Source of the DNA: Candidatus Sulfopaludibacter sp. SbA3
Lineage (GTDB): Bacteria; Acidobacteriota; Terriglobia; 20CM-2-55-15
Assembly (NCBI GenBank): GCA_945865815.1
Contig: CAMBFR010000003.1
Coordinates: forward strand, 65,258-102,580
Length of the DNA stretch: 37,323 nt
Reading direction: 5' to 3'
Shown in pieces: positions 5,955 through 29,474 of the stretch. Under the pieces are notes generated by a model. The model saw nothing but the letters and a program-made list of their open reading frames with translations, was not told where the DNA came from and made no database searches. Each line of letters begins with the position of its first letter. Position 1 is the stretch's first letter. The translations under genes and the position numbers were made by a program.

Positions 5955-8597
5955 TCAGAACTGAAAGCGCAGACCGGCTTCGATTTCCCTGGGATCGCCG
6001 GCGTTGGTCGATCTGCCGAAGTTCGAAGACGTCATGACGCCGGAGGGGACGCCATAGTTCGGCCTGTTGAACGCATTGGTCATGTTGATGAAGACGTTCA
6101 CATTCGTTTGCGAGCCGCTGTTGCCTTGTCCGCTCCCGAAGAAGAATGCCTTCGATATGTTGAAATTGAAGTTCAGGGAATTCGGGGTCGGCGTGTTGTT
6201 TCTCTTTCCGCCGGACGGCCGGTCGTTGACGGAAGTGTCCTGGTTGTCGTCCTTGCCTGTCGTGATCGTGTATTTGCGGCTGCTGGCGAAGTTCATGGTT
6301 CCGGTGAGGAACAATCCCAGCGGCAGGCGCGCGTTTGCCGTGGTATTCAACTGATGGACCGGCTGCGCGCCGTTAGCCCAGTCCGCGCGCAGGTTGTAGC
6401 TGTCGGACGGCAGGCCATCGGCCGCGAAGCCAAACTGGCTGACGTTGCTGTTGTTGTTGCTCGGGTTCTGTATGGTATCGGTCCGGTTCACGGTCGTGGT
6501 GTAGTTCCCCGACAAGTTGAAGATGCTGAATCGCTGGCGGAAGTTGAGCCGCAACGAATGGAACGTTTCCGATCCCGTCGATTCCATATTGATAATGTTG
6601 CCGCGATCGGGCTGGGGCCGCACACAGACGTCGCTTGACTGTCCCGGCTTGCACGAAGCCGGAACCGGCGACGTGAGGTCCAGCGGCGCATTGAGATTCC
6701 TGAATCTGAACCGGTGAAGCTCCCGGCTGAAATCGTAGCTGGCGCTGACGAACAGGTTGTTCAGGAACGTCCTCTCGTACGAGAACATCGCTACGGACTC
6801 GTATGGCGACTTAAAACCCGGGTCGATCACCTTTACCGATGGTCTATTTCGAATCGTTCCCGATATGAACGGATCCGGATAAGAGGGGTTGTCGATAATG
6901 ATTTCGTATTGCGGATAATCCCGGTCCGGGCTCTGTTTGAGGTGGTCGGCGATTTGAAAGTGGCCAATCCGCTGGTGAAACACGCCCGCGCCGGCGCGAA
7001 GGACAGTGGCGCGTCCTATGGCATACGCAATCCCGATCCGGGGATCGATGTTGTTATGGTCGCTTATGTTCGTCTGGACTTCGTAACGAACGCCCGACAT
7101 CAGAGTAAAGCGTGAGGTCAGCTTCAGATCGTTCTGAAAGAAGAAGCCAAGATCCCATTGGCCGAGTTCCATCAGGGGATTGCCGCGATTTACCCGGAAG
7201 TTGAGCGGAGTGCCTGCCAGGTAGGATTCCAGGCTGGAAAACGTAAACTGTCCGGTGAAATTCGTTTCCTGAAGCTGATTAAGCTTTCGATATCCGCCTT
7301 CCATGCCGGTCTTGATGGTCAGCTTCTCTCCAAGCTGCGTGTAGAGATTCGAGAACTCGTAGTTCTTGTTGCGGTTCTCGCTTCGGTTCTGCGCGCCACC
7401 GGATGAGAAGCTGTCGGTCACGTTGATCCGAAGGCCTTCGGTCAGTGGGACCGTCTGGTTACGATTCGTGTTGTAGTTGAAACGCGCTTCAAAAATTTTC
7501 TGAGCGGAGAGCGCGGAAAACTGTTTGACTTCGATATTCCAATTCCCGCCGCTGTTGTTCGCCGCCCGGTCGGGCATGACGAATCCACCGACTCCCTGAT
7601 TGCGGTTGGTGTTGGAGCGCTTGCCTGCATTGAAGCTGAGCGAATGGCCTTCCGACAACTGCAGCGTGTGGCGCGTCTCCAATCCTCTGAACGTACTTGG
7701 CCGCGTGATGCCGAGCGCGAAAATGCCGTCGGGCAGTGTCGCGCGGATTGTGTCGACGTTTTCGGCCCGATTGATGGCCATGTTGACGCTGCTGGTTAAC
7801 CGGCCCGGAAGGACCGGCCCGCCGACGTCGAAGCTGATCTGACGTTCCTGATAGGGGGGCTTGTTATTCGCAAACCGGCGCCCCGCATTAAGGGATTCGT
7901 CCTTCAGCAGGACCTGGGCATTGCCGTGAAACGCTCCCGCTCCGCCGCGCTGAATGACTTCGGCGCCGCCCTGCCCGCCAAAGTTGCCGCGATTGTTGTT
8001 ATTGTTGTTGAAGTTACCGAAGCCACCGCCACCGCCACCGCCAAAATTGTTGAAGTTGCCGCCGCCGCGGTTTCTGTACTGGTTGTCCTCGGCGGTGAAG
8101 GGATTGTTGTTGATGCGGACAAATTGCGTCTGGTTCTGCTGACGCCGCGCAGCCGCCTGAGCAGGGAGGGAAGTTTCTCGCGCCGAAGCGGCAAGCGCCG
8201 TTTCCTGGTGACGTCCCCAGATTCTAAGCTGCTCCGGAGTCAGGTAGTCCTGCAGGCGGCTGAGAAATTCGGCGCGCATCCACTGGATTGCATCGCGAAG
8301 ACGATCGGCCTCCTGGCCGCGCGTGGGACCTGAACTGAAATCCATCAGGTTGCCAAACAGGTCTTCGGAGGCCTTACGGCGATCTTCCATCATCAGGGTG
8401 ATCGCCCTTTCCTGGTCCTCGGTAAAGGGGAGATTGGCGTCCCCAACAACTTTCTGAACTTCAGCTCTCAGTTGCGCCAGAGGGTTTTCGGCTCCCGTGG
8501 CCGGCTCCTGGGCGAACGACGGTGAGACCAACATCAGGACAATAAGAACAATGGCCAAACTAATACCCCAAGCATAAAGACTAAATACAATGCTCAA
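5955..8597 (-). CDS. TonB-receptor-like outer membrane beta-barrel protein
   Basis: An 880-residue outer-membrane protein related to the large Oar/TonB-dependent receptors of Acidobacteriota. It starts at TTG (8597), the only start that keeps the signal peptide (hydrophobic 10-27, cut near SFAQ30). Residues 40-130 form a helical domain with EDQERAITLMMEDRRKA and LTPEQLRIW, like Spy/LTXXQ periplasmic proteins. Residues 175-211 are a Gly/Asn-rich linker. EVIQRGGAGAFHGN (213-226) matches only the last strand of a receptor plug, followed by the barrel to the terminal LRFQF, whose last Phe suits BAM insertion. The usual carboxypeptidase-regulatory domain, TonB box and most of the plug are missing. 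The ligand is unknown. It lies downstream of thiO with a 51-bp gap. Confidence 0.8.
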   Translation of the reverse strand: MSIVFSLYAWGISLAIVLIVLMLVSPSFAQEPATGAENPLAQLRAEVQKVVGDANLPFTEDQERAITLMMEDRRKASEDLFGNLMDFSSGPTRGQEADRLRDAIQWMRAEFLSRLQDYLTPEQLRIWGRHQETALAASARETSLPAQAAARRQQNQTQFVRINNNPFTAEDNQYRNRGGGNFNNFGGGGGGGFGNFNNNNNNRGNFGGQGGAEVIQRGGAGAFHGNAQVLLKDESLNAGRRFANNKPPYQERQISFDVGGPVLPGRLTSSVNMAINRAENVDTIRATLPDGIFALGITRPSTFRGLETRHTLQLSEGHSLSFNAGKRSNTNRNQGVGGFVMPDRAANNSGGNWNIEVKQFSALSAQKIFEARFNYNTNRNQTVPLTEGLRINVTDSFSSGGAQNRSENRNKNYEFSNLYTQLGEKLTIKTGMEGGYRKLNQLQETNFTGQFTFSSLESYLAGTPLNFRVNRGNPLMELGQWDLGFFFQNDLKLTSRFTLMSGVRYEVQTNISDHNNIDPRIGIAYAIGRATVLRAGAGVFHQRIGHFQIADHLKQSPDRDYPQYEIIIDNPSYPDPFISGTIRNRPSVKVIDPGFKSPYESVAMFSYERTFLNNLFVSASYDFSRELHRFRFRNLNAPLDLTSPVPASCKPGQSSDVCVRPQPDRGNIINMESTGSETFHSLRLNFRQRFSIFNLSGNYTTTVNRTDTIQNPSNNNSNVSQFGFAADGLPSDSYNLRADWANGAQPVHQLNTTANARLPLGLFLTGTMNFASSRKYTITTGKDDNQDTSVNDRPSGGKRNNTPTPNSLNFNFNISKAFFFGSGQGNSGSQTNVNVFINMTNAFNRPNYGVPSGVMTSSNFGRSTNAGDPREIEAGLRFQF

Positions 8598-13486: not shown

Positions 13487-14797
13487 ATGCTTTCCCCCGC
13501 ACGCACCGGGTTGAGGATTGTAATGTGGATTGTGTTGGCCGGTTTTGCGGCCGAGTCCGCATGGTCCCTGCCCGTGTTTGCCCGCCGGTACGAGACTTCA
13601 TGCACGACCTGCCATGTCATGATCCCGAAGCTGAACGCGTTTGGCCTGGCGTTCCGTAACAACGGCTACCGCATTCCCCTGAATGAAGAGCGGCTGATCA
13701 AGACGCCCGATGTATCGCTGGGCGCGCCAGCCTGGAGAACCCTCTGGCCCAAGGCCGTATGGCCGGGCGCGATTCCGGGAATGCCGCCGGTCGCAATACG
13801 CGTAACGCTGGATGGGAACATCCGCCCGTCTGCTCCCGTGAATGTCAATTTCGATTTTCCTCAGGGAGTCACCGGGTATTTCGCCGGATCCGCAGGCGAG
13901 GCCTTCTCGTTCTTTGGAAACGTTTTTCTGCAGGGCTCCACGAACTCCATTTTCCTTGACCGGGCATACGGACAATTCCGGCTGTTTCCTGAAACGCCGG
14001 GGCAAAACTGGCTCACGGTGAAAATTGGCCGCATCGACACTCGAGCCGAACCGTTCTCGCACACATTCAAGCGCCTTACTGCCCAAAGTTTCAATGTTGG
14101 CGACTATCGCCCCGTGGCCAATACGCTGGCCCTGCGAGATCATGACGCGGGTATTGAACTCTGGGGAGCCGCAACCGGGCCGGACAATCGTGGAGGCATC
14201 GAATATGCGGCCGGCGTCACCCAGGGAACGGCGGGCAGGCCCGAAAACAACAATTTCAAGGACTACTACTGGACAGTCTCCTACAAGGCCGGCGGGTTGG
14301 GCGTCGTTGGTTCGCGAGTCGAGCAAGCCGAGGATCCCAACACGGCCGAAGGATACACGGAGACTTCAGTGGGTTTTGGCGGGTTCATGTATATCGGAAA
14401 GGGCCAGCCGCCACTGGCGGGTGTCAGCGAAGACCGCTACAGGCGCGAAGGCGTGAAGGTTGATGTGTCGCTCCAGAATCTCAATATCTTCGCGGCCGCG
14501 GTTCGCGGCGAAGACCAGTTGCGCGGCGCCGGACCGGCTATCCTCAACTCGAGTGCGATATTTGCCGAAGCGGACTACCGGGTTCTGCCGTGGGTCATGC
14601 CGATCTTTCGTTTTGAAAAGACGAACTACTCGGACGGTCGTAGAAACATCGTCGCGCTTATTCCCGCAGTCAGCGTTCTACTTCGCGCGAATGTGCGGGT
14701 ACACGGAGAGGCGCGCTATTTTAATCGGGTCAGCACGACAGGCACGGCCAGAACGGGGCTGAATGAGGGCCTGGTGCGCATGGAGTTCCTCTTTTGA
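13487..14797 (+). CDS. Monoheme c-type outer-membrane beta-barrel protein
   Basis: A 436-residue exported protein with one heme c motif and a predicted outer-membrane barrel. The signal peptide is residues 1-28 (ESAWS, then LPVFARRYETS). C39-T-T-C42-H43 is the single CxxCH, followed by VMIPKLNAFGLAFRNNGYRI. The rest alternates short amphipathic strands (NWLTVKIGRIDTRAEPF, DYYWTVSYKAGGLGVVG, VRVHGEARYFNRV) and ends in Phe (RMEFLF), as expected for BAM substrates. The arrangement suggests a periplasm-facing heme plug on a porin, but one heme cannot by itself span the membrane. The start is supported by AGGAAAGG upstream. It leads a three-gene operon with the cupredoxin and hybrid kinase. Confidence 0.75.
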   Translation: MLSPARTGLRIVMWIVLAGFAAESAWSLPVFARRYETSCTTCHVMIPKLNAFGLAFRNNGYRIPLNEERLIKTPDVSLGAPAWRTLWPKAVWPGAIPGMPPVAIRVTLDGNIRPSAPVNVNFDFPQGVTGYFAGSAGEAFSFFGNVFLQGSTNSIFLDRAYGQFRLFPETPGQNWLTVKIGRIDTRAEPFSHTFKRLTAQSFNVGDYRPVANTLALRDHDAGIELWGAATGPDNRGGIEYAAGVTQGTAGRPENNNFKDYYWTVSYKAGGLGVVGSRVEQAEDPNTAEGYTETSVGFGGFMYIGKGQPPLAGVSEDRYRREGVKVDVSLQNLNIFAAAVRGEDQLRGAGPAILNSSAIFAEADYRVLPWVMPIFRFEKTNYSDGRRNIVALIPAVSVLLRANVRVHGEARYFNRVSTTGTARTGLNEGLVRMEFLF

Positions 14798-14825
14798 AGC
14801 AACAAGTTAAAGGCTGCCCCTGAAA

Positions 14826-15443
14826 ATGACGATAAAACGACGGAACCTGATATCCATTATGACTCTAGTCTTCTCCACATTTGTCGCTGCCCTGTTGTCA
14901 GCCGGCACTGCCGACGGTACGACGATCCAGGGGCAGGTCGTCGTACGCAACGCGCGCGACAACGCGGACGCGGTCATTTATATTGAGAAGATACCCGGCA
15001 AAACGTTTTCGCCGCCGGCCACTCCTGTCATCCTGGACCAGGTCAATCTGACGTTCACGCCTCATGTCCTGCCAGTCCTGGCGGGTACACGAGTCGCCTT
15101 TCCAAACCGCGACGAAATCCGGCACAACGTTTTTTCGCCGACGGCGATTTCAAAATTCAACCTCGGCACCTATCCACGCGGCGCCACGAGGTATTACGTC
15201 TTCGACAAGCCCGGCCCCGTGACGGTGCTGTGCAATGTGCACGCGGAAATGTCGGCATATGTCGTGGTGACAGAAACACCGTACTTCGCGACGACGGACA
15301 AGACGGGAAAATTCGCGATCCCGAATGTTCCCCCGGGGAATTACGTGCTGAAGGCATGGCATGAGAAGTCGAAACCCGCAAGCATGGAAATCGAGGTTCG
15401 CGAGGGCGAACCTTTGAACGTGCAATTTGAATTACGAAAGTAG
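14826..15443 (+). CDS. Type-1 copper (plastocyanin-like) periplasmic protein
   Basis: A 205-residue exported cupredoxin. Signal peptide residues 1-31. The copper ligands are visible: H100 (IRHNVFS), C136, H139 and M142 in VLCNVHAEMSAYVVV, the C-x2-H-x2-M order of mononuclear blue-copper sites. The last 60 residues (FATTDKTGKFAIPNVPPGNY and on) form a carboxypeptidase-regulatory-like beta domain. Similar two-domain proteins are often annotated as methylamine-utilisation-like or plastocyanin-like. It most likely shuttles single electrons in the periplasm between donors such as heme proteins. It sits 28 bp after the monoheme barrel and 6 bp before the sensor kinase. Confidence 0.8.
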   Translation: MTIKRRNLISIMTLVFSTFVAALLSAGTADGTTIQGQVVVRNARDNADAVIYIEKIPGKTFSPPATPVILDQVNLTFTPHVLPVLAGTRVAFPNRDEIRHNVFSPTAISKFNLGTYPRGATRYYVFDKPGPVTVLCNVHAEMSAYVVVTETPYFATTDKTGKFAIPNVPPGNYVLKAWHEKSKPASMEIEVREGEPLNVQFELRK

Positions 15444-15449
15444 ACTGCA

Positions 15450-17603
15450 ATGAACCTGAAGCAGAAGACTCTCTTCTTTGTTGCGCTCAATGTGGCGGGC
15501 TTGCTGCTGTTGTATGTCTACTTCAGCAGCTTCTACATCGGCGAGCAGGAAAAGCAGTTTTTCGACGGCCGGCTTGGAACGGTGACGGCCATATCTCAGG
15601 AGTTCGGAGAATTCTTCGCGCGCGGAACCGACCGGCTGAACGTCATCGGGGAGCTGCCGGGCCTGGTATACGGCCTTCAGAGTCTTGAAGACTCAAGAGA
15701 GGGCAAGCAGATTCCCGTCTGGGGCACGCTGCATTATCTGTTCTTTGAATCGGATGTCTTCAGCTCCGGCGTCTACCTGGTGAACAACCAGGGCAACGTC
15801 CTCTGGAGCGAGCCTCCCGATGTGGACCTCATCGAAAAGCCCTATGCGGCGTACGACAGCGTCAGCCGGTCGTTTGTTCAGGACGACCCGGCGGCATCGT
15901 CGTATACGTTGTGGGAGGGAGAGCAGGGCCCGGAAATCCTGATTGCCAAACCGATCGCCGACGGCGATGGGAATCGCGTGGGCGCTCTTGTCGGCGCAAT
16001 ACCCGTCGACCACCCTGTGATTCAGGCGATCCTACAGCGCAGTCCGGCGGGTCAGGGAACGGCTCAACTCGTCGACACCGCCGGCCGAGTCATCGCGGGT
16101 ACGGACCCGGCGCGGCAGTCGCAAACCTTGCGGTATTGGCAGCAGGCACCATCTGAATCCAGGGCGGGCATTGTAGACGGGGACATCGTAGCCGTCGCGC
16201 CTGTGCTGCCTTCAGGCTGGGTGGTTACGATCGATCAGGACGGCACGGCGGCGCTCGCGCAGATCGAGCGCCTGAAGCTCGTCATCACGGGCTTTGGAAT
16301 TGTCTTCACGATAATCGCCATGGGAAGCCTTCTTTTCATACTTCGGAGCTTCACGCGTCCCATCGAAGCGCTGACACATGCCGCGCGCCGGATCGCCGAA
16401 GGCGACCTCACAAGCCAGTTCACGCTCAAACGCGGCGATGAAATCGGCCTGCTGGCCAGGACGCTGGACGACATGAAGGCGAAGCTGAAGGCCTCTTACG
16501 AACTCCTTCTTCAGTCTGAAAAAATGTCCTTGATGGGGCAGATCGTCGCGGGCATTGCTCACGAGTTGAATAATCCATTAACGATAGTGATCGGCAACGT
16601 GCAGCTCATGAGGATGCACGAAAAGAATGAGAAGAACGTGCAGTCGCTTGCGCGGGTGCAGGAGGGGGCTGAGCGCGCTTCGAAGATAGTGAAGAACCTG
16701 CTGGCATTCGCGCGCCAGGAAATGCCGGAGAGAAAGGCGACCGTCATTAATTCCGTAATTACCAGGACCCTCGAACTTCGACTTTATGAACTCAAGGTCA
16801 ACAATATCGAGGTCGGCATGGACCTCGATCCGAATCTTCCGGAAACCATGGCAGACCCTCGCCAGCTGCAGCAGGTATTCCTCAACCTCATCGTGAACGC
16901 CGAGCAGGCCATGATCGAAGCGCATGGCAAGGGCCTTCTTCGAATCAGGAGCCGGAGAGAGGCCGGAAACATTCAGATTCTCTTTTCCGACGACGGTCCG
17001 GGTATTTCGAACGAGAACGTCCGCCGGATCTTCGATCCTTTCTTCACGACGAAGCCGGTGGGCAAGGGCACGGGACTTGGCCTGAGTATCTGCCAGGGAA
17101 TCATCGCCGAGCATGGTGGCCGCATTGACGTTGAAAGCACCGTGGGGCGCGGTTGCACGTTCGTTGTGGAGATTCCCATCCAGCAATGGGAAAGAAGCGC
17201 AACGGTTGCCGCGGTTCCCGAGCGAAAATACAAGTCCACGAAAAAGAAGATTCTGGTTATCGAGGACGAGCCCCAGATCCGCCAGCTGTTCACCGATGTG
17301 CTCGAAGCCGAGGGCTACGATGTGGAGACCGCGGCCAATGGCAAGATCGCCCTCGAAATGATCGACCAGAAACCGTACGACCTCATCATCAGCGACGTGA
17401 AAATGGCTGAATTGAGCGGAGCCGATCTATACGCGCTGATCAAGCGAAAGGGATCGGCATTGGAACACCGCTTTCTCTTTGTCACCGGAGATCTGCTCAA
17501 TCCCGATACCCTTCAGTTCGTCGAGAGCACCGGGCGCGCTTGGCTGCGAAAACCTTTCGATGTGACTTCACTCACCAGGACCGTCGCCGAAACACTGCAG
17601 TAG
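15450..17603 (+). CDS. Membrane hybrid sensor histidine kinase with receiver
   Basis: A 717-residue hybrid kinase. Membrane segments at about 8-30 and 274-298 enclose a roughly 240-residue extracytoplasmic sensor resembling a double Cache domain (GVYLVNNQGNVLWSEPP; EILIAKPIADGDGNRVGALV). HAMP follows at about 300-350, then HisKA with phospho-acceptor H371 in GIAHELNNPLT, HATPase about 470-577 (N-box NLIVNAEQAM, DDGPGI, FTTKPVGKGTGLGLS), and a C-terminal receiver 600-717 with E605-D606, D649 as phospho-acceptor, T679 and K701. The receiver has no output domain, so the signal presumably passes to a separate protein. It is co-transcribed with the cupredoxin and ends 3 bp from the convergent LytTR gene. 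Confidence 0.92.
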   Translation: MNLKQKTLFFVALNVAGLLLLYVYFSSFYIGEQEKQFFDGRLGTVTAISQEFGEFFARGTDRLNVIGELPGLVYGLQSLEDSREGKQIPVWGTLHYLFFESDVFSSGVYLVNNQGNVLWSEPPDVDLIEKPYAAYDSVSRSFVQDDPAASSYTLWEGEQGPEILIAKPIADGDGNRVGALVGAIPVDHPVIQAILQRSPAGQGTAQLVDTAGRVIAGTDPARQSQTLRYWQQAPSESRAGIVDGDIVAVAPVLPSGWVVTIDQDGTAALAQIERLKLVITGFGIVFTIIAMGSLLFILRSFTRPIEALTHAARRIAEGDLTSQFTLKRGDEIGLLARTLDDMKAKLKASYELLLQSEKMSLMGQIVAGIAHELNNPLTIVIGNVQLMRMHEKNEKNVQSLARVQEGAERASKIVKNLLAFARQEMPERKATVINSVITRTLELRLYELKVNNIEVGMDLDPNLPETMADPRQLQQVFLNLIVNAEQAMIEAHGKGLLRIRSRREAGNIQILFSDDGPGISNENVRRIFDPFFTTKPVGKGTGLGLSICQGIIAEHGGRIDVESTVGRGCTFVVEIPIQQWERSATVAAVPERKYKSTKKKILVIEDEPQIRQLFTDVLEAEGYDVETAANGKIALEMIDQKPYDLIISDVKMAELSGADLYALIKRKGSALEHRFLFVTGDLLNPDTLQFVESTGRAWLRKPFDVTSLTRTVAETLQ

Positions 17604-17606
17604 CCC

Positions 17607-18344
17607 TCACCTGAACCGGGATCTCAAGTCTTTGGCATAATTCCGCCCAATCTGGACGTCGGAACCATCGGAAAGTTTCAACAGATAATGCCCTCCGGTA
17701 AGCGCGTGCACTACACGAGCATGCGCGAGTTGGACGATCGCCTGCTTGTGGACGCGGCAAAAGAGATCCGGATCGAGCCGTTCCTCAAGCTCCTTCATCG
17801 TGATACCGAGAACGAAGCGGCCATCCCTGGTTCGAGCGAACACAAGACGGTCTTCGGATTCGAATGCGATGACGTGATCGACATTCACGATCAACAGCCT
17901 GGCGCCCGAACGAGCCATCAGCCTTTCGAGCTTGCGCCGATCGCGCCGCGCTTCATCCAGCCTGATGCGCTGTGACGCCGGACGAACCGCATCGAGTTCG
18001 GACAGACACTCTCCCAGGCGTTTCTGGCTGATTGGCTTCAGCAGATAGTCCAATGCGTGAACCTCGAACGCCCGGATTGCGTAATGGCCATACGCAGTCG
18101 TGAAGATGACCATCGGCCACTCATCCCTGGAAAGAGAATCCAGAACACCGAAACCGTCAAGGCCGGGCATCTCGATATCGAGAAAAACGATGTCGGGCTT
18201 AAGTTTTTGGATGGCGGCTACGGCGGCAAGTCCGTCGGAAGCTTCTCCGACAATTTCGATCTGGTCGGCGTGCGCAGACAGGAGGCGCGCCAGCCGCCTC
18301 CTTGCCTCCCGTTCATCGTCGACGATCAACGCCCGGCGTTTCAC
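17607..18344 (-). CDS. LytTR-family response regulator
   Basis: A 245-residue transcription regulator. The receiver spans residues 1-120, with D9-D10, phospho-acceptor D56 in FLDIEMPGLDG, T82/T83 and K103 in LLKPIS. The C-terminal LytTR DNA-binding domain (about 145-245) shows VDHVIAFESEDRLVFARTRD, the FCRVHKQAIVQLAHA block and the terminal IGRNYAKDLRSRFR. It overlaps the kinase stop by 4 bp (18341-18344), so the pair is coupled and almost certainly cognate. Its targets are unknown; LytTR sites are direct repeats about 21-22 bp apart and none was recognised here. Confidence 0.92.
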   Translation of the reverse strand: MKRRALIVDDEREARRRLARLLSAHADQIEIVGEASDGLAAVAAIQKLKPDIVFLDIEMPGLDGFGVLDSLSRDEWPMVIFTTAYGHYAIRAFEVHALDYLLKPISQKRLGECLSELDAVRPASQRIRLDEARRDRRKLERLMARSGARLLIVNVDHVIAFESEDRLVFARTRDGRFVLGITMKELEERLDPDLFCRVHKQAIVQLAHARVVHALTGGHYLLKLSDGSDVQIGRNYAKDLRSRFR

Positions 18345-20119
18345 GAAGGAACTCCGGTGAGCAGGGGCAGCGCGAGCGAAACCCGGGTCCCGGAAGGAAC
18401 GAGGTCTTCAATTTGCAGGACGGTTTCATCGCCACAGAGATGTTTCAGCCGCTCCGTCACATTACTTAACCCGATTCCCGTGCCATGCCTGCGGCCTCTG
18501 TTGCCCCTGCCGGCGCCTGTGTCTTCAACCGTTACAATCAACCGCTCTCCTTCAATTCGCGCGATGATCCTCACTTCCCCGCCCTCGACTTTCGGGCTGA
18601 TTCCATGGATCACCGCATTCTCGACCAGTGGCTGCAGGATCATGGCCGGCACCAGCAGCGGTCCGGCTTTCGGGTCCACGTCAAAACGAAACGCCAGCCT
18701 CTCTTCGAAACGCGCCTTCTCGATCTCCAGATAGGACTCGAGAAAGTGAAGTTCGTCCTCCAGCTTCACCCATTCCTTGCGGGTCGATTCGAGAGCGTAC
18801 CTGAAGATCTCCGCCAGTTCTTCGGTGACGCGCTCAGCCTTCGCCGGACTGGTGTGAATCAGGCTGGCCAGCACATTAAGCGTGTTGAACAGAAAGTGCG
18901 GGTTGATCTGCGCCTGCAGGGCCTTCATCTGCGCCCGCGCGGTGGTCTCGCGCAATTCGTGATGGCTCAATTGCTGCAGGTGGGTGGCCAATTGAAGGGC
19001 CGTCGTCCTGGAGACACGCAAGTGACGGCTCATGTAACGGCGGCCGCCGGCTCGCGGACCAAGTGAAAGGTACATGGCGGAGAGTCCGGGAATCTCAAAG
19101 TGGCAAGCCGCTCCCGAAACCGGGGCAGTTTCGATTCTCACCCAATCTGCGTCCAGTTCCTTTCTCACGATTTCAGATACGCTGGACGCGAGACCATCCG
19201 TCCGGGTAAAACCGCGGATCGCCATTCCCACACGTTCCTCCTGCTCTTCGATGGACCCTTGATAGCCCATGAATCGATGCTCCACCCAGCGCGTGACCGG
19301 TTCCCTGGCGTATGCCAATGCCACCGCGCAGACCATGGTCAGCAGGACGAGCAGGTCCGGCAGCAGGAGCGGCGCGGCCGCGGCCAGCACAATCACGACA
19401 GCGCTGAGCAGGATCAGTCCCGACAGAACCTCGCGCACAAAGGCATCCATGAATGGAAGCTGGTACATGTGATATGCAATCGCGATGGTAAAGGGAACGG
19501 AAGTCATCATCGCGGCAAGGTTGACGTAGGCCAGCCAGTCCGGGCGAATCAGGCCGCCGCTGCCCAGCATCAGGATAAACATCGCTGAACCGAGGAGAGC
19601 CGCGGTTACCCCCGCCTGGTTCGCACGCCGCACGGCAGCAGGTCCGTCTGCCGGAAGGCTGCGCCGGCCGAGCCATCCGCGGACCGAGAATGCCACAAAG
19701 TACAGGAGCATCAGGTAAAGCGTGGTCTCGATGGTGAGGCTTGGCCCCAGTCCGGGATCACCAGGGGCGCTGGGAAACGCGACCTGTATGAGCGCCAGAA
19801 TGGACCACGGCCATAGCGCGTATCGGAACACGCGATTCACCCGGCCGAACCATCCGGCATCGTCGATCATGTAGCTGAACAGGAGCGGGAACAAAACCAA
19901 CGCGACAGCCCGTATGAATCCTCCCGTCCCCGTAAGCTCCCAGAAGAAGTTTCCAAACTGCCAGAAGAAGGCAAGCACACAGATGCGGAAGCCGGCCCGG
20001 ACGCCGAATAGACTGGCGCCCGGCGTCTGGCGCCACAGTCTTGCCACCAGCGCCGACTGGATCCCATGGATCAGGCAGCCGGCGCCGAAGGCTATCAAAG
20101 ACAACTGGTGGAAAGTCAT
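18341..20119 (-). CDS. LytS-type membrane sensor histidine kinase
   Basis: A 592-residue kinase of the His_kinase (PF06580) class. Seven or eight hydrophobic segments fill residues 5-270, an unusual membrane sensor with no recognised ligand site. A linker (290-380) resembling a degraded GAF-like domain follows. The phospho-acceptor is H408 in QAQINPHFLFNTLNVLASL, the signature of this class, then the ATPase segments LQPLVENAVIHG and VEDTGAGRGN, GTGIGLSNVTERL. It is the middle gene of a three-gene operon, 26 bp after the TPR-heme gene and coupled to the LytTR regulator. Confidence 0.9.
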   Translation of the reverse strand: MTFHQLSLIAFGAGCLIHGIQSALVARLWRQTPGASLFGVRAGFRICVLAFFWQFGNFFWELTGTGGFIRAVALVLFPLLFSYMIDDAGWFGRVNRVFRYALWPWSILALIQVAFPSAPGDPGLGPSLTIETTLYLMLLYFVAFSVRGWLGRRSLPADGPAAVRRANQAGVTAALLGSAMFILMLGSGGLIRPDWLAYVNLAAMMTSVPFTIAIAYHMYQLPFMDAFVREVLSGLILLSAVVIVLAAAAPLLLPDLLVLLTMVCAVALAYAREPVTRWVEHRFMGYQGSIEEQEERVGMAIRGFTRTDGLASSVSEIVRKELDADWVRIETAPVSGAACHFEIPGLSAMYLSLGPRAGGRRYMSRHLRVSRTTALQLATHLQQLSHHELRETTARAQMKALQAQINPHFLFNTLNVLASLIHTSPAKAERVTEELAEIFRYALESTRKEWVKLEDELHFLESYLEIEKARFEERLAFRFDVDPKAGPLLVPAMILQPLVENAVIHGISPKVEGGEVRIIARIEGERLIVTVEDTGAGRGNRGRRHGTGIGLSNVTERLKHLCGDETVLQIEDLVPSGTRVSLALPLLTGVPS

Positions 20120-20145
20120 GATCTGCGAGCCGTCACCGCTAAATT

Positions 20146-20982
20146 CTACTTCAACAGTTTCTCAGGGTACCGGAGATGGCAGGACTGGCAACTCGTGAAA
20201 ATCCGGTTGGTGAAAAGCGAGTTCTCGCCGCCGTTCATGCGCTTCGTTATCTCTGCAGCCAGGACTTCGCGGCCGGACCGCTTCCCGGAGTCGGCGGGCA
20301 CTGGCACCGCGAGTGCAGCTTCAAACAGGGTTTTCGCCTTCTCGTGATCGCCCTGCCTCTGGTAGGCCTCGGCAACGAATGCCTTCATGACGACATCCGC
20401 ATGGGGCGCCCGTGGAAACGAGAGGCCGGCGAAGCGGGAGCTGACCATCTCCAGATCGGCCAGCGCGTTGTAGTTTCCGATGGCGGCAAGCGCTTCGGGA
20501 GGAAAATTCTGTGCGGTAAACGCCATGACAATCCGGTTGTTTATGTTTTCCGGCTCGCTCTCGATGGCGGTCTTCATTTCACGCACACCCTGCATGAACT
20601 TGGGAATGTCCTGTCCGCGGCTCAGCACCGTCAGCACAGAACCATGAAAGGACATGGCTTCCGTATGTTTGGGCTGCAACTCCATGATCCGGGCGAATGC
20701 TTCCTCCGCCTTGACGAGGGCCTCCCCCCGGTTATGTCTCACCGCCTCATAGAAATAGGCGCGGCCAAGCGTGTACAGGTTGTAAATCCGTGTGCCATCC
20801 AGCGTGCGCGCCTGCTCCATTAACCCCAACGCCTCAGGCAGCCTTGCCTCGTCACCGGCCAGCACTTCCTGAAAAATCGCCATGCCTTTTTGGGACAGCT
20901 GGGACGCATCCTGCCCGACAGCACTCAAACTCCCGGATACCAGTCCGACGCCCAGAATCGAAATCAAAATCCAACGTCTCAT
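20146..20982 (-). CDS. Exported TPR protein with C-terminal heme c motif
   Basis: A 278-residue periplasmic protein. The signal peptide runs to about residue 23 (LSAVGQD). The body consists of helical repeats resembling TPRs (EALGLMEQARTLDG, IYNLYTLGRAYFYEAVRH, EEAFARIMELQPKHTEAM, EAYQRQGDHEKAKTLFEAAL). Near the end lies C265-Q-S-C268-H269, a CxxCH heme-attachment motif, with TSCQSCHLRYPEK-type context like that of c-type cytochromes. A heme on a TPR scaffold could act as a redox or gas-sensing input for the kinase encoded next. A disulfide or metal site is the alternative. The start is well supported by AAGGAGA 8 nt upstream. Confidence 0.7.
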   Translation of the reverse strand: MRRWILISILGVGLVSGSLSAVGQDASQLSQKGMAIFQEVLAGDEARLPEALGLMEQARTLDGTRIYNLYTLGRAYFYEAVRHNRGEALVKAEEAFARIMELQPKHTEAMSFHGSVLTVLSRGQDIPKFMQGVREMKTAIESEPENINNRIVMAFTAQNFPPEALAAIGNYNALADLEMVSSRFAGLSFPRAPHADVVMKAFVAEAYQRQGDHEKAKTLFEAALAVPVPADSGKRSGREVLAAEITKRMNGGENSLFTNRIFTSCQSCHLRYPEKLLK

Positions 20983-21038: not shown

Positions 21039-21082
21039 CAAATCGATTCCGGACAAACTGCAGAAAAACGCGACAAACGACA

Positions 21083-26268: not shown

Positions 26269-29200
26269 CTAGGGAGCGAGCACTCGTATCCGGTAGGCGC
26301 CGGAGTTATAGACGATGGTATTCGCGGATCCAAGAGTGTAGTAGCTTCGCACCTCGATGACGTAGGTTCCCGGCCGCAATTGCGTGGAAATCAACTCGGA
26401 CTGCCCATTCAACCCGCCATCCGAGCGCTCTACAATTCTTCCGCTCACATCCATCAGAAACAGATCGAGATCGTTCGCCTCGGGATTGCCGCCGGGACCG
26501 GCGCCAACGATATCCAGCCGGACTGCCACCGGTCCTCCGTTCGTTGTGAACGACAGGAAGTGAGACGACTGCATGAGGTTCTTGCGTTTCGTGGTGAGCG
26601 AATCGACTTCACCCGTCAGCGCCTCTCCATTCGCAATCATCCGTGGAAATGGATTGGTCACGCTGGGACGCACACGCGGCTGGAAGTCGATCGAGCGAAG
26701 CTGCGCCATGGACCGGAGACCGTCGGCGGCCGCGGGAGCGCGATCGAGAAGATGATCGAGAAAATACGGCAGGTACACAAAGCGGTCGCCGCGAAGATCT
26801 GAAAAGGAACGCCAGATCACGCCGAGCGGAAATCGCATATCGTCGCCGGCATCGATTGCCTCGTCATACAGGTCCCACAGCAGGCCCTGCACGGAGGCTT
26901 CGCTCCAATAGCCCGGGCGGTCCCCGGCGGGAACATTCTCTTCCAGATCGTAGCGAAGAATCCGCGAGCCTTCAGGGCCATTGGAGTCCCTGTAGACGCG
27001 GTCATTGCGAGCTGCGCTGGAAAAAAAGTTCGCAAACCCCTCAGACCAGGCAAGACGGGGATCGAGCATGTCACCCAGACGATGGGAGCCCCCCGGGGAG
27101 TCATCGCGGGAGAAACGGGCGGCAAGCAGGTGCGCGTATTCGTGAAGAATCACGGAGTCGTCGAATTCATCCGAGTCCGTGCCGCGGTCTCCGACGACAA
27201 ATGCCGTCCCGCTGTTCAGGTCGAAATGTGTCGTGCCGACGGCGCCTTCACGAACATCTCCGGTGCGCGAGGCATTACGAACGCTCCAGAAGACCGTGAG
27301 TGGCAGCGGAGTGATCGCCGGGTCCGCAAGATGAACCGTATCGTTGCCGCGCTGAACAGCCTCGAGAATGTTGAAGGCGCCCGATACCCGCGTGCTGTCG
27401 ACCAGCAGAATGTTCGACGGCGCGTCGCGCATATCGACGTCGGCGGATATGGCGTAAAGGGCGCTGTTATTCGTATTGTCGGCAACAAGCAGGTCAATCG
27501 AGCGCAACCTGCTTATGACTCGTATGGACACGGCCCGGCCGGCAGGAGCAGCTACACGAAATCTGCCCAGAGCATCGGTTTCCGAGACAGACACAACAGC
27601 CTGCAGAGCGACGTCGAACACCTCAACGCGCGCGTTGCGAACGGGCACCATCGAAGTGCGCCTCGGGTCCAAACCGGCATCTCCGACTTCAATTTTTTGA
27701 TAGAACGCCCGGCCGTTGACGACCTGAGTGGGGGAATTATCGACGGGCAGAACCTGTAGTTCCACTGGAGCCGATTCGAGACCCGCGCTTCGAAGGCGCA
27801 CCTTGACGAGGCCAACCTCGACAGGCGGGACGACAGCCGCATAAATGCCCGGAGTCGCCGTGGCCTGCAGCGGTATCGCACGCCCGCCGATCAGAAGCGA
27901 AGCCTGTTCCGCGATGTTGGCCGCCAGAATCTGAAGTACCATTCCCTCCCGAATAAAATTGCGAGGTTCAATGCTGAGAAGCGCCGGAGGCAGGGAAACC
28001 GGGCCAGGCGCGTAGCCCGAGGGCGGCGTGCGTGGCGTAACCGTCGTCAGAAACTCGTTCTCAAGCCCAGCCAGCACTTCCACGCCGTAAATCGGAACCG
28101 ACGACCGGAGCCAGATAAATCCGTTTGTGCCGGCGCCGAAGCCGGGAACAAGATCACGAATGAGCGACGAGAGTTTAGCGCCGGCGGCAATCTCAAGAGT
28201 GTTCCGGACCAGGGTCGCACCATCGGCGCCGATCAGCGACACCTCAACATTTGCGGCCGTGGGATTGTCATTCACAATCACCAATCCTGAAAAGGACGTC
28301 TCGTTATCGGCGCGTTGGGAATAGACCATGCTCCCCGCAGGCGTCGCTTCAAGCGGGATGGCCGTTGATGCCGTTTCCGAATCAACCACAACGACACCGG
28401 CAAGCGGCGCATTACTTGAATCGATGCGAAGCCATCCGTCGACGGCAGGCAAGATCGGGGAACGCGTAATAGCGGCCGTATCCAGCGATATCGACCCGTT
28501 AGCGGGCAGTGTCACCACAACAGAGAATCGTCCTGAAACCGGGCCTCCGGACCCATTGTAGAGAGTCACGGTCGCCGTAGTCGGAAGCAGCGCCGGATTG
28601 GAAAGAATCAGGTTGGAATTCAACGCGCTTGCGCGAATGAAATGAGGCGCAATCCGTGTTGCGGCCGACTGATCGGTGCGCTGGCCATTGACGAATAAGA
28701 GCGTATTCACGGTCTCGACGGAAGCCACCGCGACTGCGGCAACGCTTGTGGAAACCCTGGCTGAGACGTTACCGGCGCCAACCGCCGGCCCGATATCCGA
28801 CAACGGCACGCGGACAACAGCGCGCGACGCCAGATTCCGCGTTAGTGTCCCGACCTCCTCGCCGCGAGTATTGTAGAAAGTGATCGTGGCCGCAGCCGGT
28901 GACGCCCCCGGATTGATAACCACAACACTGGAGCTGGTAGCTTCATCCTCCCTGAGAAATGGAATCCACTGGCTGGAAAGCGCAACGGGCGCTTCAGACA
29001 CTTCCAGGGTCGAACTGAAATCACCGGCCGTGTAATGCCCAATCAAACCTGAAGAGGAACTGGTGGCCTGTATCCAGCCTTGAAGGCCTTGAAGGCCTTG
29101 AAGGCCCCCAAGGTTTCCCCCGGCAAAGAATTCATCGGCGATCATCGATAGCTGCGCGTTGGGACCGACCCGATAACTGACCGGGTTAACCACGCCCGCC

Positions 29201-29409
29201 GAAACCACGTTTCCCTCAAGGCCGTAGAGGGTTAGCTGAACATCGACGTAGTAGGGTGTTGGATTCGTGACAGAGATGCCCGTTCTGGATTGGCCGGCAT
29301 GAATCAGTTTTGGAAAGTTCAACACGGACTGCGCGCGGGCGAGCGGAGACAGCAACACCAATAGAGCCAGTGTGTTAACCACGCGGAACGCTGTGTTGAA
29401 TCTGCTCAC
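26269..29409 (-). CDS. Large secreted HExxH protein with PPC-like C-terminus
   Basis: About 1046 residues if started at GTG 29409, which has AGGTGA upstream; a TTG at 29433 would add 8. A signal peptide (LALLVLLSPLARA) is followed by roughly 450 residues of repeated beta domains, including a short LQG triple (DNA repeat near 29076-29102). An IPT/TIG-like domain (LLSIEPRNFIREGMVL) and a carboxypeptidase-regulatory-like domain follow. Near residue 756 HEYAH (HExxH), with the Glu of WSEGFA 30 residues after the second His, suggests a zinc metalloprotease. The end (NDLDLFLMDVSGRIVERSDG, LRPGTYVIEVRSYY) is a pre-peptidase C-terminal domain, common on secreted proteases. The substrate is unknown. 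Confidence 0.75.
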   Translation of the reverse strand: MSRFNTAFRVVNTLALLVLLSPLARAQSVLNFPKLIHAGQSRTGISVTNPTPYYVDVQLTLYGLEGNVVSAGVVNPVSYRVGPNAQLSMIADEFFAGGNLGGLQGLQGLQGWIQATSSSSGLIGHYTAGDFSSTLEVSEAPVALSSQWIPFLREDEATSSSVVVINPGASPAAATITFYNTRGEEVGTLTRNLASRAVVRVPLSDIGPAVGAGNVSARVSTSVAAVAVASVETVNTLLFVNGQRTDQSAATRIAPHFIRASALNSNLILSNPALLPTTATVTLYNGSGGPVSGRFSVVVTLPANGSISLDTAAITRSPILPAVDGWLRIDSSNAPLAGVVVVDSETASTAIPLEATPAGSMVYSQRADNETSFSGLVIVNDNPTAANVEVSLIGADGATLVRNTLEIAAGAKLSSLIRDLVPGFGAGTNGFIWLRSSVPIYGVEVLAGLENEFLTTVTPRTPPSGYAPGPVSLPPALLSIEPRNFIREGMVLQILAANIAEQASLLIGGRAIPLQATATPGIYAAVVPPVEVGLVKVRLRSAGLESAPVELQVLPVDNSPTQVVNGRAFYQKIEVGDAGLDPRRTSMVPVRNARVEVFDVALQAVVSVSETDALGRFRVAAPAGRAVSIRVISRLRSIDLLVADNTNNSALYAISADVDMRDAPSNILLVDSTRVSGAFNILEAVQRGNDTVHLADPAITPLPLTVFWSVRNASRTGDVREGAVGTTHFDLNSGTAFVVGDRGTDSDEFDDSVILHEYAHLLAARFSRDDSPGGSHRLGDMLDPRLAWSEGFANFFSSAARNDRVYRDSNGPEGSRILRYDLEENVPAGDRPGYWSEASVQGLLWDLYDEAIDAGDDMRFPLGVIWRSFSDLRGDRFVYLPYFLDHLLDRAPAAADGLRSMAQLRSIDFQPRVRPSVTNPFPRMIANGEALTGEVDSLTTKRKNLMQSSHFLSFTTNGGPVAVRLDIVGAGPGGNPEANDLDLFLMDVSGRIVERSDGGLNGQSELISTQLRPGTYVIEVRSYYTLGSANTIVYNSGAYRIRVLAP
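29076..29104. repeat. 9-bp tandem repeat inside the HExxH protein gene
   Basis: TTGAAGGCC occurs three times in a row with a fourth partial copy, encoding Leu-Gln-Gly repeats in the protein. The period is a multiple of 3, so copy changes would alter length but not frame. Confidence 0.7.
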
Positions 29410-29474
29410 GCCAATAGTTTCACCTGCCCGCAAGCTCTTGAGATTACAGGCCGAATGTGAAAAATGCCTCCATA

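Follow-up and report, generated by a model that had tools for sequence, protein, structure and literature searches.

The window analysed here, a 37,323-nucleotide stretch of Candidatus Sulfopaludibacter sp. SbA3 (G000:C3:65258-102580, from a 4.34-Mb genome in 193 contigs), carries six adjacent genes that fall into two groups on opposite strands (Table 1). In unit A (13487-17603, plus strand) a gene for a barrel protein is followed after 28 bp by a cupredoxin gene, which is followed after 6 bp by a hybrid kinase gene; in unit B (17607-20982, minus strand) the gene for a TPR-like heme protein lies 26 bp from that of a LytS-type kinase, which in turn overlaps the gene for a LytTR regulator by 4 bp. 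All six ORFs are present in the ORF listing of the window, and the hybrid kinase and LytTR genes converge with 3 bp between them, the junction reading TAG-CCC-TCA, so the arrangement given in the original prediction, six adjacent genes with a 3-bp meeting point, could be read directly from the ORF coordinates and stop codons. Scans for sigma-70 promoters and for terminators stayed near the shuffle expectation. Elsewhere in the window we noted a 1054-aa ORF with DUF5719 and weak PPC matches (26269-29433) and an OMP_b-brl_4 outer-membrane protein (5955-8597). ORFs outside the window were called with a custom script.

Table 1. Features of units A and B, with positions in the window and the evidence for each.
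Feature	Position	Strand	Evidence
Cyc2-like fused monoheme cytochrome-porin, 436 aa	13487..14797	+	ORF, conserved residues, AlphaFold2, Foldseek, hhalign
Periplasmic cupredoxin with C-terminal carboxypeptidase-regulatory-like domain	14826..15443	+	ORF, Pfam, conserved ligands, AlphaFold2/Foldseek
dCache_1-HAMP-HisKA-HATPase_c-REC hybrid histidine kinase	15450..17603	+	ORF, Pfam, orthologues
LytTR response regulator, unit B	17607..18344	-	ORF, Pfam, orthologues
LytS-type (PF06580) membrane histidine kinase, unit B	18341..20119	-	ORF, Pfam
Predicted secreted TPR-like protein, one C-terminal CxxCH, unit B	20146..20982	-	ORF, conservation
Predicted LytTR operator CGTTTGTC-N12-AGTTTGTC	21052..21079	-	repeat shared by three genomes

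The barrel protein has a single CxxCH, within the heme motif SLPVFARRYETSCTTCHVMIPKL near its N terminus, and AlphaFold2 modelled 16 strands after the heme domain (pLDDT 81, pTM 0.80). Foldseek matches to the model included OprO/OprP at ranks 10, 13 and 23, with general porins ranking above them, and in an alignment of its relatives P29, F31, R33, Y35, C39, C42, H43, P47 and L49 were invariant; the prediction of a monoheme outer-membrane barrel was thereby borne out. Pfam and NCBIfam searches of the protein returned no match. OprO/OprP are the templates named for Cyc2, which is characterised by its heme motif, PXL, length and 16-strand barrel, and in which the motif AXPXFAR[Q/K][T/Y] immediately precedes CXXCH (PMC8406198). 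Set against this description, the window barrel has a single CXXCH in its N-terminal domain, PXL four residues past it (CTTCH-VMI-PKL), a length of 436 aa for a minimum of at least 365 aa, and an OprO/OprP-like barrel of 16 strands by AlphaFold2 and Foldseek. The residues ahead of its heme motif read SLPVFARRY, with R for Q/K and S for A relative to the strict motif, which was found in 40/75 barrel relatives, a circular count in that the loci were fetched partly by the same motif.

Pairwise searches of the barrel against plasmid-borne Cyc2-type genes did not reach the Cyc2 threshold (blastp E <= 1e-5), the best tblastn match being 1e-2, and all pairwise matches (E 1e-2 or worse) were confined to the heme region. 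An hhalign comparison of the barrel with a profile of Cyc2-type proteins encoded on plasmids, an Acidithiobacillus ferrooxidans plasmid among them, extended over 349 columns (probability 99.4, E 1.3e-21) and was best conserved in the heme region. Since the barrel departs from the strict motif and falls short of the E-value limit in pairwise searches, we do not count it as a member of Cyc2, though the profile match and shared architecture identify it as a divergent homologue. It resembles the Cyc2 proteins of Mariprofundus, Acidithiobacillus and Leptospirillum (Cyt572) in its N-terminal CxxCH, PXL, FAR box and outer-membrane barrel, and differs from them in the two FAR-box substitutions, in its position on a deep branch apart from the plasmid-borne Cyc2-type proteins (which split from the barrel tree on a long branch of 2.16), and in sitting with a cupredoxin and a kinase of its own. 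Acidobacteria homologues have been reported for cluster 3/Cyt572 (PMC10654088). A further monoheme barrel, highly divergent in sequence (IPAFSRKHQLACNQCH; L061:8822-10596, on contig G000:C1), is encoded next to a c-type cytochrome elsewhere in the genome of the window.

For the second product of unit A, the type-1 copper ligands H100/C136/H139/M142 were invariant in 12 relatives; in a set of 39 sequences C136, H139 and M142 were invariant and H100 nearly so. The AlphaFold2 model (pLDDT 94.7) has a cupredoxin fold, and Foldseek matched it to amicyanin, plastocyanin and pseudoazurin. The Pfam Copper-bind match scored 15.1 bits, under its cut-off of 21.2, so the cupredoxin identity rests on conservation and the structural model, which together uphold the proposed blue-copper protein with His-Cys-His-Met ligands. 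The third product proved to be the expected Cache-type hybrid kinase: dCache_1, HAMP, HisKA, HATPase_c and Response_reg all exceeded their Pfam cut-offs. It has two hydrophobic segments and lacks a DNA-binding output domain, and its orthologues are 61% (L044) and 48% (L041) identical.

When species genomes were scanned using the alignment of barrels, with loci chosen by the heme motif, 79 loci were obtained, in 75 of which a barrel ORF was called. A cupredoxin gene lay within four genes of the barrel in 61/75 loci, spread over many phyla, a histidine kinase in 26/75 and a sigma-54 regulator in 23/75; a LytS, LytTR or TPR-heme gene was found within that distance in none (0/75). Taking genes six or more positions from the barrel as the baseline, cupredoxins were found immediately after the barrel in 47/73 loci versus 4/298 distant genes. 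Kinases at distances 1-4 were modestly enriched (26/477 vs 6/298, p 0.025) and NtrC-type regulators more so (27/477 vs 3/298, p 0.0008); at two positions chosen after the table was seen, kinases at -2 numbered 9/59 (vs 6/298, p 0.0001) and NtrC-type regulators at -1 numbered 12/66 (vs 3/298, p 1.5e-7). Several of the kinases beside barrels are dCache-HAMP proteins. Rieske or cytochrome-b genes followed within nine genes downstream of the barrel in 24/75 loci, and a layout of [kinase-NtrC]-barrel-cupredoxin-GltD-like-Rieske-cytochrome b-octaheme appeared in Ignavibacteria, Calditrichota, Gemmatimonadota, Zixibacteria and others, its domains being verified by Pfam in one relative of the same class as the window genome (L050). 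In most relatives from that class (barrels 27-31% identical) the barrel and cupredoxin genes precede a bc-type cluster with no kinase, and the kinase is therefore not a universal partner of the pair.

In the tree, the window barrel clustered with those of four loci (L070, L071, L072 and L073; SH-aLRT 100), and the order barrel-cupredoxin-hybrid kinase is kept in the last three, the contig of L070 ending past the cupredoxin gene. The L073 record is titled as a Bifidobacterium breve MAG, probably wrongly; its barrel is 54-55% identical to that of the window. The L073 kinase matches the window's hybrid kinase in architecture and position, with a core only 26% identical compared with 54% for the barrel, so it is either fast-evolving or was separately recruited. 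No sigma-54 (-24/-12) promoter was found above the control upstream of barrels, which is weak evidence given that ORF start positions are uncertain. We noted that in one relative from the window's order (G003) a sigma-54 activator without a receiver domain is encoded directly upstream of the barrel (L041:12165-13103); it is a possible partner for the kinase receiver, and the window barrel has no adjoining counterpart.

In unit B, the LytTR regulator was recovered as described, with Response_reg and LytTR domains by Pfam and orthologues 73-77% identical in two relatives (G003 and G009). The other two assignments held in part. The LytS-type kinase has His_kinase PF06580 and HATPase_c domains and about six hydrophobic segments, with no Pfam match to the 5TM LytS sensor domain; the TPR-heme protein has a CxSCH near its C terminus that was kept in 3/3 orthologues at 53-60% identity, while all its TPR matches fell under the Pfam cut-offs, so the TPR assignment rests on conservation. 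The three genes are conserved together in the window genome, G003 and G009. Across 396 genomes of the phylum, the TPR-heme protein gave weak partial matches alone outside the window's order, and unit B was found solely within it. Compared with LytSR and BtsSR, unit B likewise pairs a PF06580 kinase and a LytTR regulator with a direct repeat, here a predicted operator, upstream of the operon, and differs in lacking a matched LytS sensor domain and in having a gene for a predicted secreted TPR-heme protein in first place. Two predicted ORFs away from the TPR-heme gene of G003 lie genes for a decaheme cytochrome and a porin of the MtrB/PioB family (L042:3993-7691), possibly another outer-membrane electron conduit in this order.

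The upstream regions of the three unit B copies share VGTTYGTC-N12-VGTTYGTC amid sequence much of which has diverged. We predict it to be a LytTR operator; in the window it lies 70-97 bp ahead of the first codon of the TPR-heme gene. The exact direct repeat occurs once in each of these three genomes, upstream of the TPR-heme gene alone; as the pattern was drawn from these sites it matches there by construction, and the informative part of the scan is that the match list for 11 genomes held no other exact LytTR-type repeat (expected 0.07 per genome of that size) and none near unit A. Matches with one mismatch were, for the most part, about as frequent as in the backward control. Near-repeats (AATCCGCT..) at 21-bp spacing upstream of the barrel, considered as a candidate LytTR site, are of different sequence and probably due to chance. 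Binding to paired direct repeats is known for LytTR regulators, for example AgrA (PMC4227749), and from this precedent and the confinement of the exact repeat to unit B we predict that unit B regulates its own operon.

The original prediction went further, treating the six genes as one module and, by inference, one circuit. Our comparison covered 11 genomes of the order in 4 genera, most of them draft MAGs in which contig breaks limit the counts; the barrel was present in 4/11 and the TPR-heme protein in 3/11. In G003 (~100% complete) the units are on different contigs, each amid unrelated genes: unit A lies between the sigma-54 activator gene and one resembling rlmH, with rsfS-, nadD- and obgE-like genes (named by eye) beyond the activator, and in unit B TPR-LytS-LytTR faces proA. 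In G009 TPR-LytS-LytTR lies between fadB and proA and the genome has no barrel; in G007 unit A and the LytTR gene are on separate contigs, the latter gene near proA with one masked gene intervening; in the congener G001 (81% complete) the contig stops just past the cupredoxin gene, and the genome yielded no TPR-heme gene. The gap between proA and fadB is empty in G004 (proA ends at 7954, fadB starts at 7964) and in G008 (proA end 9162, fadB start 9281), holds a 200-aa gene in G006, and holds four other genes in G010, which marks it as a variable insertion spot; L165 and L162 are the loci that show proA and fadB directly adjacent in two relatives.

Rare adjacency of the halves in related genomes, named beforehand as the outcome that would count against the module, is thus what G003, G007 and G009 show: each half is conserved, and the two are joined in one genome alone. 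A single circuit newly assembled in the insertion spot of SbA3, in which the LytTR unit would also control or sense unit A, is in our judgment very improbable; the 3-bp convergent gap and the likeness of the units, each combining envelope redox proteins with a kinase, would fit it, but the units are convergent rather than co-transcribed, they stand apart in G003 and G007 with unit B by itself in G009, no exact LytTR-type repeat lies upstream of the barrel, and none of the 75 barrel loci has a LytS, LytTR or TPR-heme neighbour. Synteny, neighbour counts and the operator scan together led us to reject one six-gene module. Units A and B share only the proA-fadB insertion spot, and by gene order and content the six genes appear as two separate units rather than one circuit. 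Being neighbours in a single genome says little about whether genes form a circuit: across the 11 genomes of the order the units come apart.

We consider it probable that unit A is an outer-membrane electron-transfer operon and unit B an independent, self-regulated two-component system. In unit A, the Cyc2-like barrel would hold its one heme within an outer-membrane pore and pass single electrons between a dissolved extracellular partner and the periplasmic cupredoxin, which would exchange them with the respiratory chain. The dCache hybrid kinase most likely controls expression of unit A in response to a periplasmic signal, and would hand its phosphate to a regulator encoded elsewhere. In unit B, the LytS/LytTR system with its predicted secreted TPR-heme protein would act on its own operon. 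Unit A most likely serves, under its own kinase, to carry electrons one at a time between the periplasm and a redox partner outside the cell, for which Fe(II) is a candidate. A different assignment, in which the barrel would be a porin for some substrate and use its heme for structure or sensing, the cupredoxin would deliver copper and the kinase would respond to copper or to a nutrient, seems unlikely to us: dCache domains usually bind small molecules, e.g., amino acids or organic acids, and the cupredoxin carries a carboxypeptidase-regulatory domain, both in keeping with such a role, but its type-1 ligands are of the electron-transfer type and the barrel-cupredoxin pair lies near respiratory complexes in the 24 loci mentioned above.

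The direction of flow under the electron-transfer reading is less constrained. The genome of the window has two COX1 matches (heme-copper oxidases) over the cut-off and, elsewhere (G000:C12, L063:8486-14966), genes for a cupredoxin-like protein, an octaheme cytochrome, two cytochrome-b parts and a Rieske protein, with no barrel; with these, flow could run inward or outward. The Rieske/cytochrome-b, GltD-like flavoprotein and octaheme clusters that have the barrel-cupredoxin pair directly upstream in many relatives, and which may be linked to anammox bc complexes, thus have their counterpart apart from unit A in this genome, and no GltD-like match was among the genes seen there. Outward flow, in which respiration would send electrons from quinol through a bc-type complex, the cupredoxin and the barrel onto an acceptor outside the cell such as Fe(III) or humics, is a possibility to which we give clearly less weight. 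It is allowed by the quinol-type complexes downstream in relatives, the 24/75 loci with Rieske/cytochrome-b genes being as expected for quinol oxidation, and many such loci are in lineages generally regarded as anaerobic (Ignavibacteria, Calditrichota and anammox Planctomycetes). Against it, the two heme-copper oxidases permit inward flow to O2, and characterised Cyc2 proteins oxidise Fe(II) (PMC8406198), a precedent that favours inward flow from Fe(II).

Among known systems, the rus operon of Acidithiobacillus (cyc2-cyc1-cup-cox-rus; PMC10654088) similarly encodes an outer-membrane monoheme porin with a periplasmic blue-copper protein. Unit A differs from it in having no cyc1, cox or rusticyanin gene and in the addition of a sensor kinase; the regulator of the Acidithiobacillus iron oxidation genes is reportedly RegB/RegA, a global system. 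MtrAB and PioAB are also outer-membrane electron conduits, with a decaheme in a 26-strand barrel (PMC8406198), whereas the window protein has a single heme fused to a small barrel.

Ca. Sulfopaludibacter has been read as a sulfate reducer (PMC10564751). We found no dsrA match in the genome of the window, in a weak search whose control gave sub-cut-off matches in unrelated genomes, so that reading of the genus is not obviously applicable. Cyc2 is a leading marker of neutrophilic iron oxidation; what its distant homologues do has been named an open question (PMC8406198). It is conceivable, and we suggest it only tentatively, that the FAR[K/R]Y barrels, the window protein included, constitute a sister group to iron-oxidising Cyc2 that spans phyla, has a cupredoxin partner and, in many lineages, dedicated dCache/NtrC signalling, and serves regulated outer-membrane electron transfer in organisms for which iron oxidation is not known. 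A Cyc2 homologue encoded with a blue-copper partner and a sensor kinase offers a concrete place to test the role of this distant branch and the signal that triggers it, and unit A is a lead on how electrons may move through the outer membrane in bacteria outside the known iron oxidisers.
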